Made by a program: the position numbers and the translations under genes. The notes under the pieces are model-generated. The model was not told the origin of the DNA. It ran no database searches and saw nothing but the letters and a program-made list of their open reading frames with translations. Positions 215 through 6,260 of a stretch of 42,918 nucleotides of DNA are shown here, in pieces; positions within the stretch are counted from its first letter, which is position 1, and each line of letters opens with the position of its first letter. Source of the stretch: an uncultured Agathobacter sp. Lineage in GTDB: Bacteria; Bacillota; Clostridia; Lachnospirales; Lachnospiraceae. The stretch covers positions 1 through 42,918 of the forward strand of contig CAMDYX010000021.1 in the NCBI GenBank assembly GCA_945910395.1, written 5' to 3'.

Positions 215-243
215 TTGATTTTATATAGAAATAGGATTAAAAT
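215..243 (+). promoter_or_regulatory. sigmaA-type promoter for leuA
   Basis: A -35 box TTGATT (215-220) and a -10 box TAAAAT (238-243) are separated by exactly 17 bp. Transcription would start near 250, giving a leader of roughly 88 nt. That is too short for a T-box, and no T-box consensus is seen. Confidence 0.7.
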
Positions 244-254
244 GTATCAAGATA

Positions 255-274
255 AATGATTAAATTTAATCATT
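255..274. promoter_or_regulatory. 20-bp perfect palindrome, candidate operator of leuA
   Basis: The sequence AATGATTAAATTTAATCATT is a perfect palindrome. It lies 11 bp downstream of the -10 box, across the expected start of transcription, which is a classic repressor position. Which protein binds it is unknown; the AraC-type domain carried by the downstream enzyme is one candidate, but AraC proteins usually bind direct repeats. Confidence 0.55.
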
Positions 275-286
275 CAAAGTACAGAA

Positions 287-307
287 GTTATGTGATACCA
301 TCATAAC
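287..307. promoter_or_regulatory. Second inverted repeat in the leuA leader
   Basis: GTTATG (287-292) and CATAAC (302-307) are perfect inverted arms with a 9-nt spacer, ending 30 nt before the start codon. It could be a second operator or a small RNA hairpin. No U-tract follows, so it is not a terminator. Confidence 0.35.
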
Positions 308-337
308 ACAAAAAAGGAACAAAAAGGAAGTAGAGAT

Positions 338-2326
338 ATGAAAGGATACGAAAAATATGAGCGAGCATACTTTATGCCGCCGGAATGTACATATGATTGG
401 GTGAAAAAGGATTATGTGGATAAGGCACCTTACTGGGTGTCTGTTGATCTTAGAGATGGTAACCAGGCACTGATTGAGCCAATGAGTCTGGAGGAAAAGC
501 TGGAATTCTTCCAGATGCTGGTAAAGATTGGCTTTAAGAAGATTGAGATCGGTTTTCCGGCAGCGTCTGAGACCGAATATATTTTTGCAAGAGAGCTGAT
601 TGAGCGTAATATGATTCCGGAGGATGTGACGATTCATGTGCTGACACAGGCCAGAGAGCATATCATCCGAAGAACCTTTGAGGCACTTGCGGGGGCACCG
701 AGGGCAGTTGTCCATCTTTACAATTCCACATCCGTTGCACAGCGTGAGCAGGTGTTTAAGAAGGATAAGGAAGAAATCAAGCAGATTGCAGTGGATGGCG
801 CGAAGCTTTTAAAGGACCTTGCTGCTGAGACGGAAGGAAACTTTACGTTCCAGTACAGCCCGGAGAGCTTCCCGGGAACAGAGGTAGACTATGCGGTGGA
901 GGTATGTAATGCCGTACTGGATGTATGGGACCCAAAACCGGATAACAAAGTAATCATCAACATTCCCACTACCGTGGAGAATGCAATGCCACATGTTTTT
1001 GCAACCCAGGTGGAATATATCAACAAGAACTTAAGACACCGTGATGGAGTAATCCTGTGTCTGCATCCGCACAACGACCGCGGTTGCGGAGTCAGCGATG
1101 CAGAGCTTGGTATGTTAGCAGGAGCGGAGCAGATCGAGGGAACGCTGTTTGGAAACGGAGAGAGAACCGGTAACGTTGATATTGTTACCCTTGCCATGAA
1201 TATGTATTCCCATGGCGTTGACCCGGAGCTTGATTTTTCCAATATTCCGGAAATCCGTTCCGCATACGAGCGGCTTACCCGTATGCATGTGCATGAGAGA
1301 CAGCCTTATGCCGGTGATCTTGTATTCTCCGCATTTTCGGGATCTCATCAGGATGCAATTGCAAAGGGAATGGCCTGGAGAGAAGAGAAAAAACTGGATA
1401 AGTGGACCGTTCCTTATCTTCCGATTGATCCAAAGGATGTGGGAAGAACCTACGAGGCAGATGTAATCCGAATCAACAGCCAGTCCGGAAAGGGTGGCGT
1501 TGCCTACATCTTAAAGCAGAACTTTGGAATTGCGATTCCGGAGAAGATGCGTGAACAGGTAGGATATATGGTAAAGCAGGTATCGGACGAGGAGCACAAG
1601 GAGCTTTCTCCGCAGTGGGTATATGAGATTTTTGAAGACAACTATGTAAATCACAATCCGATTTTCCTGGTGCCGGAATGCCACTTTAAGCAAATTGATG
1701 GCATTATGGCTGAGGTTTCCATTCATCAGGGTGAGCAGTCCCGTGTGGTTACCGCCAATGGTAATGGACGACTTGACGCAGTAAGTAATGCCATTAAGCA
1801 GTATTTTAACATCAGCTATGAGCTTTCTGTATATGAGGAGCACGCCCTCTCTCACGGCTCTTCTTCAAAGGCCATGGCATATGTGGGGCTGACTTACCAA
1901 AACCAGATGTACTGGGGTGTCGGCATGAAGGAGGATATTATTCAGGCCTCTGTAAATGCCCTTGTTGTTGCTGTAAACCGGCTCCTTGAAGTCAAGAAGG
2001 TTGAAAATGTGCAGGATGAGCGTCTGATAGCAATGCAGAACTTCATTCAGGCAAATTATCAGACCGTAACCCTAACGGACATGGCAGAAGAATTCCATCT
2101 GTCTGAGCCGTACATTTCCAAATACATCAAAGAAAAATCAGGAAAAACCTTTGGTGATCTTGTGCAGAATGCAAGGATGAAAAAGGCAAGAACCCTGCTT
2201 CGAAACAGCAATATGACGGTTGAAAGTATCGCATATACTGCCGGATACCAGAATGTGGAACATTTTAACAGGCAGTTTAAAAAGAAATACAATATGACAC
2301 CAATCGAATATCGCAATCAGAAATAA
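338..2326 (+). CDS. leuA: 2-isopropylmalate synthase fused to a C-terminal AraC-type HTH domain
   Basis: Residues 1 to about 555 match the long-type 2-isopropylmalate synthase, which condenses acetyl-CoA with 2-oxoisovalerate in the first committed step of leucine synthesis. Visible landmarks are the N-terminal VDLRDGNQ catalytic motif (36-43), the metal-binding HPHNDRG near 243 and GNGERTGN of the TIM barrel. The LeuA dimer/allosteric region follows at about 430-555. Residues ~566-662 form a complete AraC/XylS DNA-binding domain with two helix-turn-helix units; the second reads [21 protein letters not shown] and ends in the family signature TPIEYR. The ordinary enzyme is about 560 residues, so the extra 100 residues are a true fusion in one open frame. 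A GGAAG ribosome site lies 10-14 nt upstream. The gene has its own promoter and terminator, so it is monocistronic. Direct transcriptional control by the enzyme is an inference. Confidence 0.93.
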
Positions 2327-2370: not shown

Positions 2371-2396
2371 AAATCTCTTTTCGGATGGAATGTAAT

Positions 2397-3185
2397 ATGA
2401 AACAATTATATTTTTATAAGACATACAATGACGACGTAGTGACAAATGAAAATCAGGATTTTAAGCTGCCGGATAACTACGAGTGGATCAAAAGCTCCTT
2501 TTGGGATCGAATAAAATCCGCTGCAGTTTACGCACTGGCAATCGTGGGAGGCTTTTTATATTGCAAATTCGGTCTTCATCTGCGGGTCGTGGGAAGAAAA
2601 AAATTAAAAGAGAATAGGTACCGTGGCTTCTTTGTGTACGGAAATCACACACAGATGGTGGCAGATGTTTTTCTGCCGGCAATCGCCTGCCTTGGAAAGC
2701 GCATTTACACCATCGTAAGCCCCGCCAATTATGGTCTGCCGGTAATCGGAAAGCTGCTTCCGGCTCTTGGGGCGCTTCCGATACCGGATAGCATGTCCAT
2801 GATGAAAAAGTTTCAAAAGGCCATCGCGACACGAATTGAGCAGAAGCATGTGGTGGTGATTTTCCCGGAGGCCCATGTCTGGCCCTACTATACAAAAATC
2901 AGACCCTTTTCAAATACCTCCTTTCATTATCCGGTGGAGCAGCATGCACCCGTGTATGCGCTGACCACCACCTATCAAAAGCGCATCATAGGGAAAAAGC
3001 CGAAAACAACACTCTATGTGGACGGCCCCTTTTATCCGGATCAGACCCTTTCTGCAAAAGAGCAAAGGGCTAAGCTGTGTGAAAGTGTATCGGCGGTGAT
3101 GCAGCAAAGAAGCAAAAGCAGCAGCTATGAATACATCTCTTATATCAAACAGAAAGAGAGTATTGACAACAGCGTGGTGAAGTGA
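2397..3185 (+). CDS. PlsC-like lysophospholipid acyltransferase family protein
   Basis: This 262-residue protein resembles 1-acyl-glycerol-3-phosphate acyltransferases, which add the second acyl chain in phospholipid synthesis at the membrane. A hydrophobic segment at about 41-58 precedes the catalytic block. The block reads YGNHTQMVAD: His84 and Asp90 are five residues apart, whereas the usual motif is HX4D. A later FPEAHVWP (146-153) corresponds to the FPEG substrate-binding block. An in-frame ATG at 2385 is possible, but GGATGGAA (2383-2390) is a ribosome site placed correctly for 2397. The gene stands upstream of a glycosyltransferase set, so a role in lipid or glycolipid modification is plausible. 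The acceptor is not known. Confidence 0.75.
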   Translation: MKQLYFYKTYNDDVVTNENQDFKLPDNYEWIKSSFWDRIKSAAVYALAIVGGFLYCKFGLHLRVVGRKKLKENRYRGFFVYGNHTQMVADVFLPAIACLGKRIYTIVSPANYGLPVIGKLLPALGALPIPDSMSMMKKFQKAIATRIEQKHVVVIFPEAHVWPYYTKIRPFSNTSFHYPVEQHAPVYALTTTYQKRIIGKKPKTTLYVDGPFYPDQTLSAKEQRAKLCESVSAVMQQRSKSSSYEYISYIKQKESIDNSVVK

Positions 3186-3194
3186 TATAACATG

Positions 3195-3215
3195 ATGTAG
3201 TAATAAATGCTACAT
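3195..3215 (+). other. Small hairpin before the GT8 gene
   Basis: ATGTAG (3195-3200) and CTACAT (3210-3215) form a 6-bp stem just ahead of the ribosome site of the next gene. No U-tract follows, so this is not a terminator. It may be chance. Confidence 0.25.
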
Positions 3216-3232
3216 AACGGAGTTTAAAAAGC

Positions 3233-4075
3233 ATGAACATCTTGTTTTGCGGAGATAAGAAAATTGAAGAAGGATTACTGCTTTCCATTTTGTCGATTAC
3301 AAAGCAGGTATGGGAAGAGCTTCATATTTATGTGCTTACAGCCCAGTTCGATTATGAGGGAAAACGTTATGACAGGGTTTCGGAATCGGCGGTTTCCTTT
3401 CTGGATACCCTGGTAAAGCAGAAGCGAACAGAGAATTCTGTGGAATGCTTTGATATCTCTTCGCACTTTTTGGCGGAGCTTCCGGATAAGAACATGGGAA
3501 CAAGATTTACTCCTTGCTGCATGCTACGGCTTTTTGCGGATCTGGTGCCGCAGCTTCCGGATAAGATACTGTATCTGGACAATGATGTGATCTGCAGAAG
3601 AGATTTTACGCCGTTTTATAGTCAGGATATCACAAATTTTGAGTTTGTTGGTGTATTAGACTATTACGGGAGCTGGTTTTTCCGGAAAAAATGGTACAAG
3701 CGGGATTACTGTAATTCCGGAGTACTTCTCCTTAATCTGAAAAAAATCAGACAGACCAATTTGTTTGGAAAATGCAGAAAAGCCTGTATCGAAAAAAATA
3801 TGTTTATGCCGGACCAGTCGGCACTGAATAAACTGGCAGTAGCTAAGGGCATCGATGAAAGAAGGTATAATGACCAGCGCAGACTCCGGGAGGACACGGT
3901 GCTGCAGCATTTTACAACCACCTTCCGCTTTTTCCCATGGTTTCACACAGTTACCGTAAAACCGTGGCAGATCGAGGACATGCACAGGGTGCTTAAGCTT
4001 CATGAGTATGATGAACTTTTGGATGAATTTGTAGTGTTAAAAAGAAAGATGAATCAGGAGGAACTTTCCCTATGA
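3233..4075 (+). CDS. Glycosyltransferase family 8 protein
   Basis: A 280-residue GT-A fold enzyme. The nucleotide-sugar/metal motif appears as KILYLDNDVI, with DND at 116-118 in place of the generic DXD. The next block, DYCNSGVLLLNLKKIR, is the conserved acceptor-side NSGVLLLN motif of family GT8, and DQSALNKLA follows as expected. There is no signal peptide or membrane segment, so it acts at the cytoplasmic face. It overlaps the next GT8 gene by 4 bases (ATGA), implying translational coupling and a shared product. The sugar donor and acceptor cannot be read from sequence; likely products are surface polysaccharide or glycolipid. Confidence 0.88.
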   Translation: MNILFCGDKKIEEGLLLSILSITKQVWEELHIYVLTAQFDYEGKRYDRVSESAVSFLDTLVKQKRTENSVECFDISSHFLAELPDKNMGTRFTPCCMLRLFADLVPQLPDKILYLDNDVICRRDFTPFYSQDITNFEFVGVLDYYGSWFFRKKWYKRDYCNSGVLLLNLKKIRQTNLFGKCRKACIEKNMFMPDQSALNKLAVAKGIDERRYNDQRRLREDTVLQHFTTTFRFFPWFHTVTVKPWQIEDMHRVLKLHEYDELLDEFVVLKRKMNQEELSL

Positions 4076-5034
4076 CAACAGTAAAGAACAGGATACCGGT
4101 TTTCTTTTCCATTGACGATCGTTATGCAGCGTGTCTTGCAGTGGCAATGAAATCCTTAATAAGCAATGCAAATCCGGATAACCATTATCATTTAATTGTG
4201 TTGCACAACAATTTAAGTGAAGAGCATCAGAAACGAATCGGCGCTCTTTCTACGGATTTTGCCAAGGTGGAATTCGTTTCCATGGAGGGGAAGCTTAGCG
4301 AAATCAATGATCGTGCAGGAAGTCGTCTGCGCTGTAACTATTTTACCCTGACTATTTTCTTTCGGCTGTTAATTGCGGACATGTTTCCCCAGTATGATAA
4401 GGGAATCTATGTGGACAGCGACATTATTGTTCCGTCAGATATTGCACAATTGTATCAGATTGATATCGGAGACTGTCTGCTTGGTGCCTGCTCGGATCTT
4501 TCCATTACGGGAATTCCGGTATTTATGAAATATCTGGATGAGGCGATAGGCGTCGGTGGCAGAAATTATGTCAACTCCGGGGTACTTCTTATGAATATGA
4601 AAAAGCTTCGGGAGGTTTCCATGGGCAGAAGATTCTTAGAGCTTTTTCATAAGTATCACTTTGATTCTGTTGCTCCGGATCAGGACTACATAAATGCCAT
4701 GTGCAAGGGCAAGATCTTTTATCTGCCAAAAGAGTGGGATACCATGCCCAATGAAAATGAACCGGAGATTCCAAATCCAAAGCTGATTCATTATAACCTG
4801 TTTTCAAAGCCATGGAATTACGATGATATTCAGTACGAAGATTATTTTTGGAAATATGCAAAAGAGTCTGATTACTACGAGGAGATTCTGGCAGAAAAGG
4901 AAGCCTTTGATGATGCAAAAAGGGAAGAGGAGCAGAAGATGCTGGAGGGCATGCTTGAAAATGCTGCCCGCATCATGAAGGAAGAGGTCACTTTCCGGAG
5001 GGTATTTGAAAGCGGGAAAGAGCAAAGACTGTAA
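4072..5034 (+). CDS. Glycosyltransferase family 8 protein
   Basis: A second GT8 enzyme of 320 residues, not a close duplicate of its neighbour. The start IPVFFSIDDRYAACLAVAM is the typical GT8 N-terminus. GIYVDSDIIV carries the metal-binding DSD at 115-117, NYVNSGVLLMNMKKLR the NSG block, and PDQDYINAM the next conserved helix. The motif LIHYNLFSKPWN contains the conserved C-terminal HY/F...KPW block. The last 50 residues are a charged helix (Glu/Lys rich), possibly for contact with the membrane or a partner. An AGGAGG ribosome site lies inside the end of the preceding gene. A strong terminator follows. Confidence 0.9.
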   Translation: MTTVKNRIPVFFSIDDRYAACLAVAMKSLISNANPDNHYHLIVLHNNLSEEHQKRIGALSTDFAKVEFVSMEGKLSEINDRAGSRLRCNYFTLTIFFRLLIADMFPQYDKGIYVDSDIIVPSDIAQLYQIDIGDCLLGACSDLSITGIPVFMKYLDEAIGVGGRNYVNSGVLLMNMKKLREVSMGRRFLELFHKYHFDSVAPDQDYINAMCKGKIFYLPKEWDTMPNENEPEIPNPKLIHYNLFSKPWNYDDIQYEDYFWKYAKESDYYEEILAEKEAFDDAKREEEQKMLEGMLENAARIMKEEVTFRRVFESGKEQRL

Positions 5035-5045
5035 AAAATGATAAA

Positions 5046-5093
5046 CCGTGAAGCTTTAGAACGAAGAAAGGTCTTTAGTTTCACGGCTTTTTT
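5046..5093 (+). terminator. Rho-independent terminator after the GT8 pair
   Basis: CCGTGAA (5046-5052) pairs with TTCACGG (5080-5086), with further pairing inside the loop (AAGCTTTAGA against TCTTTAGTT is partial). A run of seven T follows. Confidence 0.8.
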
Positions 5094-5141
5094 TATTATA
5101 CTATCCTTTGAATGGATTTTTTTGTATAATGGGAGAAGAAT

Positions 5142-6260
5142 TTGAAAGAACGACTGCGAATCTATACAATGACACATAAGCCCTTTGAGATTCCTAAGGA
5201 CCCTCTCTATGTTCCGCTACAGGTGGGAAGTGCCCTGCAGGAAGACTTAGGATATTTAAGGGATGATACCGGGGACAATATTTCCGCGCAGAACTGCTAT
5301 TACAGCGAGCTTACCGGCTTGTACTGGATCTGGAAAAATGTAAAGAATCTGGATTATGTGGGAACCTGTCATTACCGCAGATATCTGATCAATGACCGGG
5401 AGCTTATTTTTACCGAAGAGGAGTATCTGGACCTGCTTACAGAGTTTGATCTGATTACGACAAAACGGGTTCATCTGAACAATTCTTACCACTTTGGTTT
5501 TTCCGCAAACCATAATATAGTGGCTTTGGATACCACCGGAGAGGTGATCCGGGAATTGTTTCCGGACTATTACGATACCTTTGTAAGACTTGTAAACGGA
5601 CCACAGACCTACTTTGGAAATATTTTTGTGACATCGAAGGAGGTCTTTGACGAATACTGCCACTGGCTGTTTACCATCTTTTTCGAGGTGCAAAAGCGTA
5701 TCGATATGGAAACCGATGAGGATTCCTATCATAAAAGAGTATTCGGCTTTATCTCGGAATTTCTGCTCTATGTTTTTACGACGGTAAAGGGTCTAAGGGT
5801 ATGTGAATGCAAGGTGGGAATGATTGGGGAGAAGGCAGAAACCAGAGAAATGAAGCAGCATCTGGCTGCGTATTTAAAAGCGCATGATATTGACGGGGCA
5901 AAGGAATATTTCATGCAGCAGCACAAGCTGCGGCCGGATATACTGATGGAAGCCTCCGATATCACAGGAGAGCTTCATCTTGCGATGCAGATCATCGCTA
6001 CCGCAGATGCCGAGATGAAACGATACAAAAGCAGCATTTTGGATACGGAAGATGATTTTTATAAGCTGGTGCCGTTCTTTGCAAAATTAAACCGTGCGGT
6101 AACGGATCTGGCGGAAGGAGCACCTTTAGAGGAAGACTTGATATACATAAAGAATATGCCCTTATCGGATGTGGCAATCTGGGTTGCAGTACAGATCTAT
6201 CCGGGAAAAAAGGGAAATAAGGAGGAATTATTCAAATGGTTAATCCAGCAACGTTCATGA
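5142..6260 (+). CDS. DUF4422 family glycosyltransferase-like protein
   Basis: Residues 1-230 belong to the DUF4422 family found in capsule and surface-glycan loci. The diagnostic blocks are SELTGLYWIWKN (55-66), YVGTCHYRRYL (72-82) and the later SYHFGFSANHN. The remaining ~140 residues are helical and unclassified. The start is TTG: GGGAG at 5131-5135 is well placed for 5142 and there is no in-frame ATG before the conserved block (YTM at residues 8-10 would be too late). A TATAAT at 5125-5130 may be the -10 of a promoter, but no good -35 box is seen. It lies in the same direction as the GT8 pair, separated by a terminator. Confidence 0.8.
   Translation: MKERLRIYTMTHKPFEIPKDPLYVPLQVGSALQEDLGYLRDDTGDNISAQNCYYSELTGLYWIWKNVKNLDYVGTCHYRRYLINDRELIFTEEEYLDLLTEFDLITTKRVHLNNSYHFGFSANHNIVALDTTGEVIRELFPDYYDTFVRLVNGPQTYFGNIFVTSKEVFDEYCHWLFTIFFEVQKRIDMETDEDSYHKRVFGFISEFLLYVFTTVKGLRVCECKVGMIGEKAETREMKQHLAAYLKAHDIDGAKEYFMQQHKLRPDILMEASDITGELHLAMQIIATADAEMKRYKSSILDTEDDFYKLVPFFAKLNRAVTDLAEGAPLEEDLIYIKNMPLSDVAIWVAVQIYPGKKGNKEELFKWLIQQRS

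Follow-up and report, generated by a model that had tools for sequence, protein, structure and literature searches.

The gene at positions 338..2326 (forward strand) of a 42,918-nucleotide contig of an uncultured Agathobacter sp. (GCA_945910395.1, CAMDYX010000021.1; hereafter, the window) raises the question of whether the biosynthetic enzyme 2-isopropylmalate synthase (LeuA) can at the same time be a transcription factor, and, if so, which gene it regulates and by which signal. The initial annotation had read here a complete LeuA that runs in frame into a complete AraC/XylS helix-turn-helix (HTH) pair, and both the open reading frame and the Pfam domains agree with it. The ORF (leuA-HTH) starts with ATG, has zero internal stops, and encodes 662 amino acids. 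The domain search of the product yields three LeuA domains, all on the forward strand: the HMGL-like catalytic domain (residues 31–307, positions 428..1258, E 1.5e-68), the post-catalytic domain IPMS_D2 (residues 327–393, positions 1316..1516, E 1.8e-34), and the leucine-binding regulatory domain LeuA_dimer (residues 424–550, positions 1607..1987, E 4e-24). They are followed, on the same strand, by a short variable linker (residues 551–560, positions 1988..2017), seen in the conservation comparison and the AlphaFold2 model, and by the AraC/XylS-type DNA-binding domain with two HTHs (residues 561–661, positions 2018..2320), delimited by Pfam, conservation, and AlphaFold2. The C-terminal HTH pair expected of the AraC/XylS family is present, with HTH_18 at residues 582–661 (E 6e-22) and HTH_AraC at residues 621–660 (E 4e-14); all five Pfam matches exceed the curated cut-offs. 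The LeuA part scores 801.9 bits against NF002991 (cut-off 455); the equivalog cut-off of TIGR00970 is not reached (663.2 vs. 697.4). The AlphaFold2 model contains seven helices within residues 561–660, and its pTM of 0.61 means that the packing of the domains in it is not reliable.

The survey of homologues confirms that the fusion is real, that is, the enzyme and the DNA-binding domain share one chain. Among 60 genomes of the same genus, 47 (own included) carry the full-length in-frame fusion and two carry partial genes that reach the HTH; of the rest, two genes end early, one (G058) is unfused, in six genomes the only LeuA is a distant, unfused one, and two have none. In Lachnospiraceae, sampled at 250 genomes, approximately one per genus, the in-frame fusion is found in 60 (own included). 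Hence the C-terminal part is not missing or frameshifted in every close homologue, and an assembly artefact or a chance frame is ruled out by the conservation of the fusion across relatives. The fusion is absent from all 92 genomes with a LeuA match in the order outside the family, and a class-wide sample of 391 genomes has it outside the family in three (G555, G681, G683).

The active-site residues of the enzymatic part are intact. Residues R39, D40, E176, H243, H245, N279, H337, and Y360 are invariant in 52 aligned proteins; their equivalents in LeuA of Mycobacterium tuberculosis (1sr9) are R80, D81, E218, H285, H287, N321, H379, and Y410, which have catalytic or metal-binding roles. The M. 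tuberculosis protein (1sr9; 3fig, leucine-bound) is an enzyme of the same type and the best sequence and fold match of the window protein, with both catalytic and leucine-sensitivity residues in common; unlike the window protein, it has no DNA-binding domain after the regulatory domain. The fold search gives LeuA and other TIM-barrel enzymes, with no AraC protein among the 50 matches listed. Mutants of M. tuberculosis LeuA at Y410 and E218 lose leucine sensitivity (available part of PMC10464499), and the window residues matching these two are invariant in the same 52 proteins. The leucine pockets of LeuA lie where the regulatory domains of the dimer meet (PMC11057210, in the portion accessible), and it is to this domain, the site of the pockets, that the HTH of the fused protein is attached. 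The window gene is the sole LeuA_dimer match in its own genome (89% complete), which also has leuC- and ilvD-like genes, named by family search, and leuD-, leuB-, and ilvB-like genes, named by the look of their sequences. Since no other LeuA was found and these further genes are present, the fused protein is most likely the working 2-isopropylmalate synthase of the cell.

The HTH part is conserved as well. Mean identity to the window protein in 38 fused relatives is 69% for the HTH halves, 66% for LeuA_dimer, and 46% for residues 551–575; the LS-PY-SKY and GY-NVEHFNR stretches of the HTH halves are conserved equally with the regulatory domain. That the HTH has lost its DNA binding and is now a structural add-on seems barely credible to us, as both halves are as conserved as the regulatory domain.

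De novo motif search in the upstream regions of 102 fused genes, limited to the 320 nt closest to the gene, yields a single strong motif, tTAAAAtA.ATCAAtaAAA.TGATTAAATTTAatcaTt (38.8 bits, estimated in 88% of sequences). In the window, it corresponds to an AT-rich conserved candidate operator of approximately 38 bp, TTAAAATAnATCAATAAAAnTGATTAAATTTAATCATT (positions 237..274, forward strand), whose architecture is a forward half-site plus the palindrome TGATTAAATTTAATCA. It has a PWM score of 40.7 and, by the operator model, 33.6 bits (E 1.4e-7), the window's own site being among the training sequences of both the PWM and the model. Self-similarity of the PWM fits both half-site layouts (inverted, centre 16, 0.24; direct, shift 23, 0.17). 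An inverted repeat near the −10 region, GTTATG...CATAAC, was also considered as an operator and dropped, as it is not seen in the promoter alignment. Further downstream are a predicted extended −10 element, TG-A-TACCAT (positions 293..301, forward strand), 56 nt from the operator start, which is the conserved distance, and a likely ribosome-binding site AGGAAG (positions 325..330, forward strand), read from the sequence. This conserved candidate operator upstream of fused leuA is new here and was not part of the initial annotation.

The position of the candidate operator relative to the promoter is nearly rigid. The extended −10 element (TGnTAnnAT), which lies downstream of and outside the 44-nt motif, has the same offset from it in 75 of 92 promoters and is one nucleotide closer in 9; two promoters have it elsewhere, and in six it is not found. 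The site is more remote than the 320 nt searched in eight loci (L042, L047, L074, L119, L133, L124, L064, L065), all of which keep the −10 offset. The window promoter has no consensus −35 element, and at the −35 position only one of 90 operator promoters matches TTGACA in five of six nucleotides, the other 89 matching in at most four. Class II activators, such as AraC at araBAD, are marked by a site abutting the −35 region, nearly constant spacing, and an extended −10 with the −35 missing; the AraC site at araI2 adjoins −35, and the site of fused leuA does likewise. An extended −10 without a good −35 makes it probable that RNA polymerase is recruited by the bound protein. Alternatively, the AraC domain might act at the same site as an autorepressor that blocks RNA polymerase when leucine-bound, yielding negative feedback. 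The site extends to the −35 region and so could serve a repressor, and half-sites over the −10/start region exceed the shuffled expectation (at score 6, forward in 28 of 88 promoters vs. 1.4, some of which may be the −10 element itself, and reverse in 18 of 88 vs. 0.4); the near-rigid −10 spacing and the missing −35, however, suit an activator, and three fused genes with a weak or decayed site (L034, L035, L068) have a TTGAC-type −35 instead. We thus regard autorepression as an unlikely main mode, and activation as the preferred one.

Just upstream of leuA, the window contains the end of an OmpR-type response-regulator-like gene, cut by the contig end (positions 1–161). A hairpin followed by a T run at positions 2335–2372, read by eye, is a likely terminator, so leuA may be transcribed alone; beyond it (positions 2385–6260) are an acyltransferase-like ORF and three glycosyltransferase-like ORFs, the latter recognized by eye. 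In L064, an alpha/beta hydrolase-like ORF of approximately 290 codons (~4960–6000) lies between the operator/promoter and leuA, which may therefore be second in the transcript; in L065, the operator is at a distance like that in L064.

The candidate operator and the HTH occur together. With a site called present at a PWM score of 10 or more, it is found within 500 nt upstream of 92 of 102 fused genes vs. 0 of 31 unfused genes; in another four fused genes (L133, L124, L064, L065) it is more distant, and these are counted as positive. Of 168 leuA genes, 102 have both HTH and site, 6 have HTH without the site, 60 have neither, and none has the site without HTH; L081, a gene truncated at its contig end, and L030, with 85 nt of upstream sequence, had been left out beforehand, and L266 is counted as lacking HTH, though the gene is cut by the contig end. 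As the first sample leaned to closer relatives, 44 distant upstream regions were added, of which two near-copies were left out. In the resulting held-out set of 42 more distant fused genes, the site is present in 31, with the −10 offset the same in 21, one nucleotide less in 6, two less in 1, and no −10 recognized in 3. Adding these genes lowers the share with the site from 102/108 to 133/150, so that overall 133 of 150 HTH-bearing genes have it vs. 0 of 60 genes without HTH. The 17 HTH-bearing genes below the threshold comprise six scoring −8.5 to 8.4 and eleven from the distant set, ten of these at −3.7 to 8.2, mostly diverged copies, and one, L317, at −38.1, with no trace of the site; several of the 17 are diverged or shifted copies. 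For the 31 original unfused leuA genes, the 700 nt downstream contain no HTH in any of the frames. Only a few evolutionarily independent pairs are available, and hence shared ancestry accounts for much of this table: well-supported branches provide five pairs, with a mean of 4.9 concordant and 0 opposite (sign test, p 0.0625; made without the 42 distant genes).

The fusion appears, from the trees, confined to one LeuA clade, with later losses. In a tree of 136 LeuA proteins, every fused one falls in a single clade (108 rows, SH-aLRT 95). The same clade contains L086, L094, and L151, where the HTH has been lost, and L081, whose gene runs off a contig end. With 170 proteins, the tree requires nine changes of the HTH state; both trees are of a quick kind. 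The fused genes of G555, G681, and G683 (L248, L249, L250) keep the operator, with PWM scores from 24.6 to 47.8; fused leuA together with its operator has perhaps reached these other families of the class by transfer. Three more genes are split, with the HTH in another frame directly after the leuA stop: L105 (7640–7680), L261 (G122), and L255 (G109). Their HTH parts are conserved (47–73% identity), and all three keep the operator (PWM 42.4, 24.8, 48.1). In two of them, A9 and A8 runs stand just before the leuA stop; no A-run of seven or more is present in any of 103 in-frame linkers, which suggests slippage on the A-run in these two, and the third may use re-initiation.

Another transcription factor might use the operator, the HTH of LeuA being unrelated to it. 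The own genome has 18 further matches to the AraC-type HTH part, and 17 of the 150 fused genes have no strong site; on the other hand, the site is found at none of the 60 leuA genes without HTH, yet kept in the split forms and in the three distant genomes, and family genomes without the fusion show only two weak matches inside other genes (20.2 and 19.7 bits) and one at a split leuA. We consider this reading very unlikely, and take the HTH of the fused protein itself as the probable ligand of the site.

Genome scans indicate control mainly of the own gene, with occasional added targets, as nearly all matches are at leuA. In the own genome, the best place is the leuA site, with 33.6 bits, followed by one with 17.7; the eight other places score at most 2.4 by the full PWM, and a wider own-genome regulon was rejected on this ground. 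Of these weak places, four (L177, L179, L180, L183) overlap an ORF away from its start; L176 overlaps the end of one ORF, 111 nt before the next; L182 precedes a 105-aa ORF; and no ORF of 100 aa or more is near L178 and L181. The leuCD and leuB-ilvD-ilvB regions of the window's genome have no operator site. In 878 kb from 72 loci, both strands, all PWM matches of at least 12 are in fused-leuA promoters, except L090. Of the 250 family genomes, 46 have a match at E 0.003 or better, and 45 of the 49 places listed are within approximately 830 nt upstream of leuA; at this threshold and with strict filters, the leuA site is recovered in 43 of 60 genomes with the in-frame fusion, so weaker sites are missed. 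The other four places are in G232, G086, G087, and G270. The one in G232 (L253, C12:187806-187840) has a PWM score of 34.4 and is upstream of a leuC-like gene, with the extended −10 one base further; the weak matches in the other three are inside an ORF or have no ORF found downstream. In the genus sample, the operator model matches in 30 of 60 genomes; here, L224 (3918–3948, G033) and L225 (3061–3088, G013), with PWM scores of 19.7 and 19.2, are upstream of cstA-like transporter genes, named by the look of their sequences, and two matches in G001 are at contig ends.

The signal is suggested by what stands upstream of leuA in unfused relatives, where the leucine T-box leader (RF00230) is predicted to control leuA by leucine supply. 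Unlike the fused protein, the T-box is an RNA that senses tRNA, and it is absent at window leuA: no RF00230 leader or other Rfam match is found in the window, so a T-box or other known RNA leader on this gene was rejected, and none of nine T-box matches in the own genome is on this contig. A simple T-box motif is present at 43 of 60 leuA genes without HTH (20/31 and 23/29), and Rfam confirms a T-box in 9 of 18 such loci searched. In 14 aligned T-boxes, the expected specifier, at the position that we take to be the specifier one, is CTC in 11 and CTG in 3, both leucine codons. At least six fused genes carry both a T-box and the operator: Rfam finds a T-box at leuA in 6 of 17 fused loci searched, most of them picked as unusual-looking (L042, L047, L074, L119, L124, L133), the operator being upstream of the T-box in each, and the same order is seen by motif in L288, L291, L293, L306, L315, and L323 of the distant set. 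The operator system thus seems to take the place of the leucine T-box used by related bacteria, and this position, held in relatives by a leucine-sensing RNA, indicates leucine as the signal. Gating might instead be by a substrate or product in the active site (2-ketoisovalerate, acetyl-CoA, or 2-isopropylmalate). The catalytic residues are intact, and yeast Leu3 is gated by 2-isopropylmalate; against this, the leucine-binding domain is the one to which the HTH is directly attached, and many unfused relatives have a leucine T-box in the same place, so that gating from the active site appears rather improbable, and leucine the preferred signal.

From these comparisons we infer DNA binding by LeuA–AraC, activation, and leucine as the signal; taken as a whole, LeuA–AraC is likely to be a bifunctional trigger enzyme that turns on the promoter of its own gene, probably at low leucine. 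The LeuA part would make 2-isopropylmalate and, as in relatives, be feedback-inhibited by leucine at the regulatory domain, between the two subunits; the AraC domain, a short linker away from it, would bind the 38-bp candidate operator upstream of the leuA promoter, and the bound protein would probably recruit RNA polymerase by class II activation. With leucine scarce, the regulatory domain would be open, the enzyme active, and leuA activated; at high leucine, the domain would close, and both the enzyme and activation would be off. In promoters with a second half-site over the −10/start region, excess protein may also repress. The initial annotation had proposed a sensor, an enzyme, and a regulator in one protein: the enzyme and the regulator are well supported by the intact active site, the conserved HTH, and the candidate operator at the gene's own promoter, seen there only with the HTH; leucine gating of DNA binding is suggested by the conserved leucine domain and residues and by the operator in the place of the T-box. 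Concerning origin, a tentative course of events, to which we would give somewhat less than an even chance, is that a single fusion event produced a leucine-gated autoactivator; that the gene and its promoter spread together; that the T-box was lost via a dual-control stage; that targets (leuC, cstA) were added in some lineages; and that in split genes A8–A9 slippage or re-initiation determines how much plain enzyme is made relative to enzyme-regulator.

Enzyme/regulator fusions as a kind are already known. AraC/XylS regulators of the AraC, RhaS, and YesN type have a complete two-HTH domain, as does the window protein; the partner of the HTH there is a cupin or other sensor, and in LeuA–AraC it is a biosynthetic enzyme. 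Ada, a methyltransferase with an AraC-type HTH that activates its own gene, is a similar pairing of enzyme and HTH; it differs in acting in DNA repair, and its switch is covalent methylation instead of the end product of a pathway. PutA, BirA, NadR, and RbkR are trigger enzymes with DNA-binding domains, often regulating their own pathway; to our knowledge, these are other enzymes with other DNA-binding folds, and none of them catalyzes the first step of leucine synthesis. The abstract of PMC3602430 describes it as widely held that enzymes recruit DNA-binding domains, and the LeuA–AraC fusion is not mentioned in the available part of PMC7478625. No description of the fusion was found in the literature searched, which is weak evidence, as most subscription journals are outside its coverage; the fusion must also appear in many publicly annotated genomes, where others may have seen the architecture and left it unremarked.

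Since relatives exist with fused and unfused genes, with split ones, and with dual control by T-box and operator, the origin of a trigger enzyme and the replacement of an RNA switch are directly testable. A leucine-gated AraC activator would double as a ready-made biosensor. If the proposed mechanism is true, allosteric and transcriptional feedback would share one leucine site on a single protein, and such dual feedback would occur in common gut bacteria, e.g., Roseburia.
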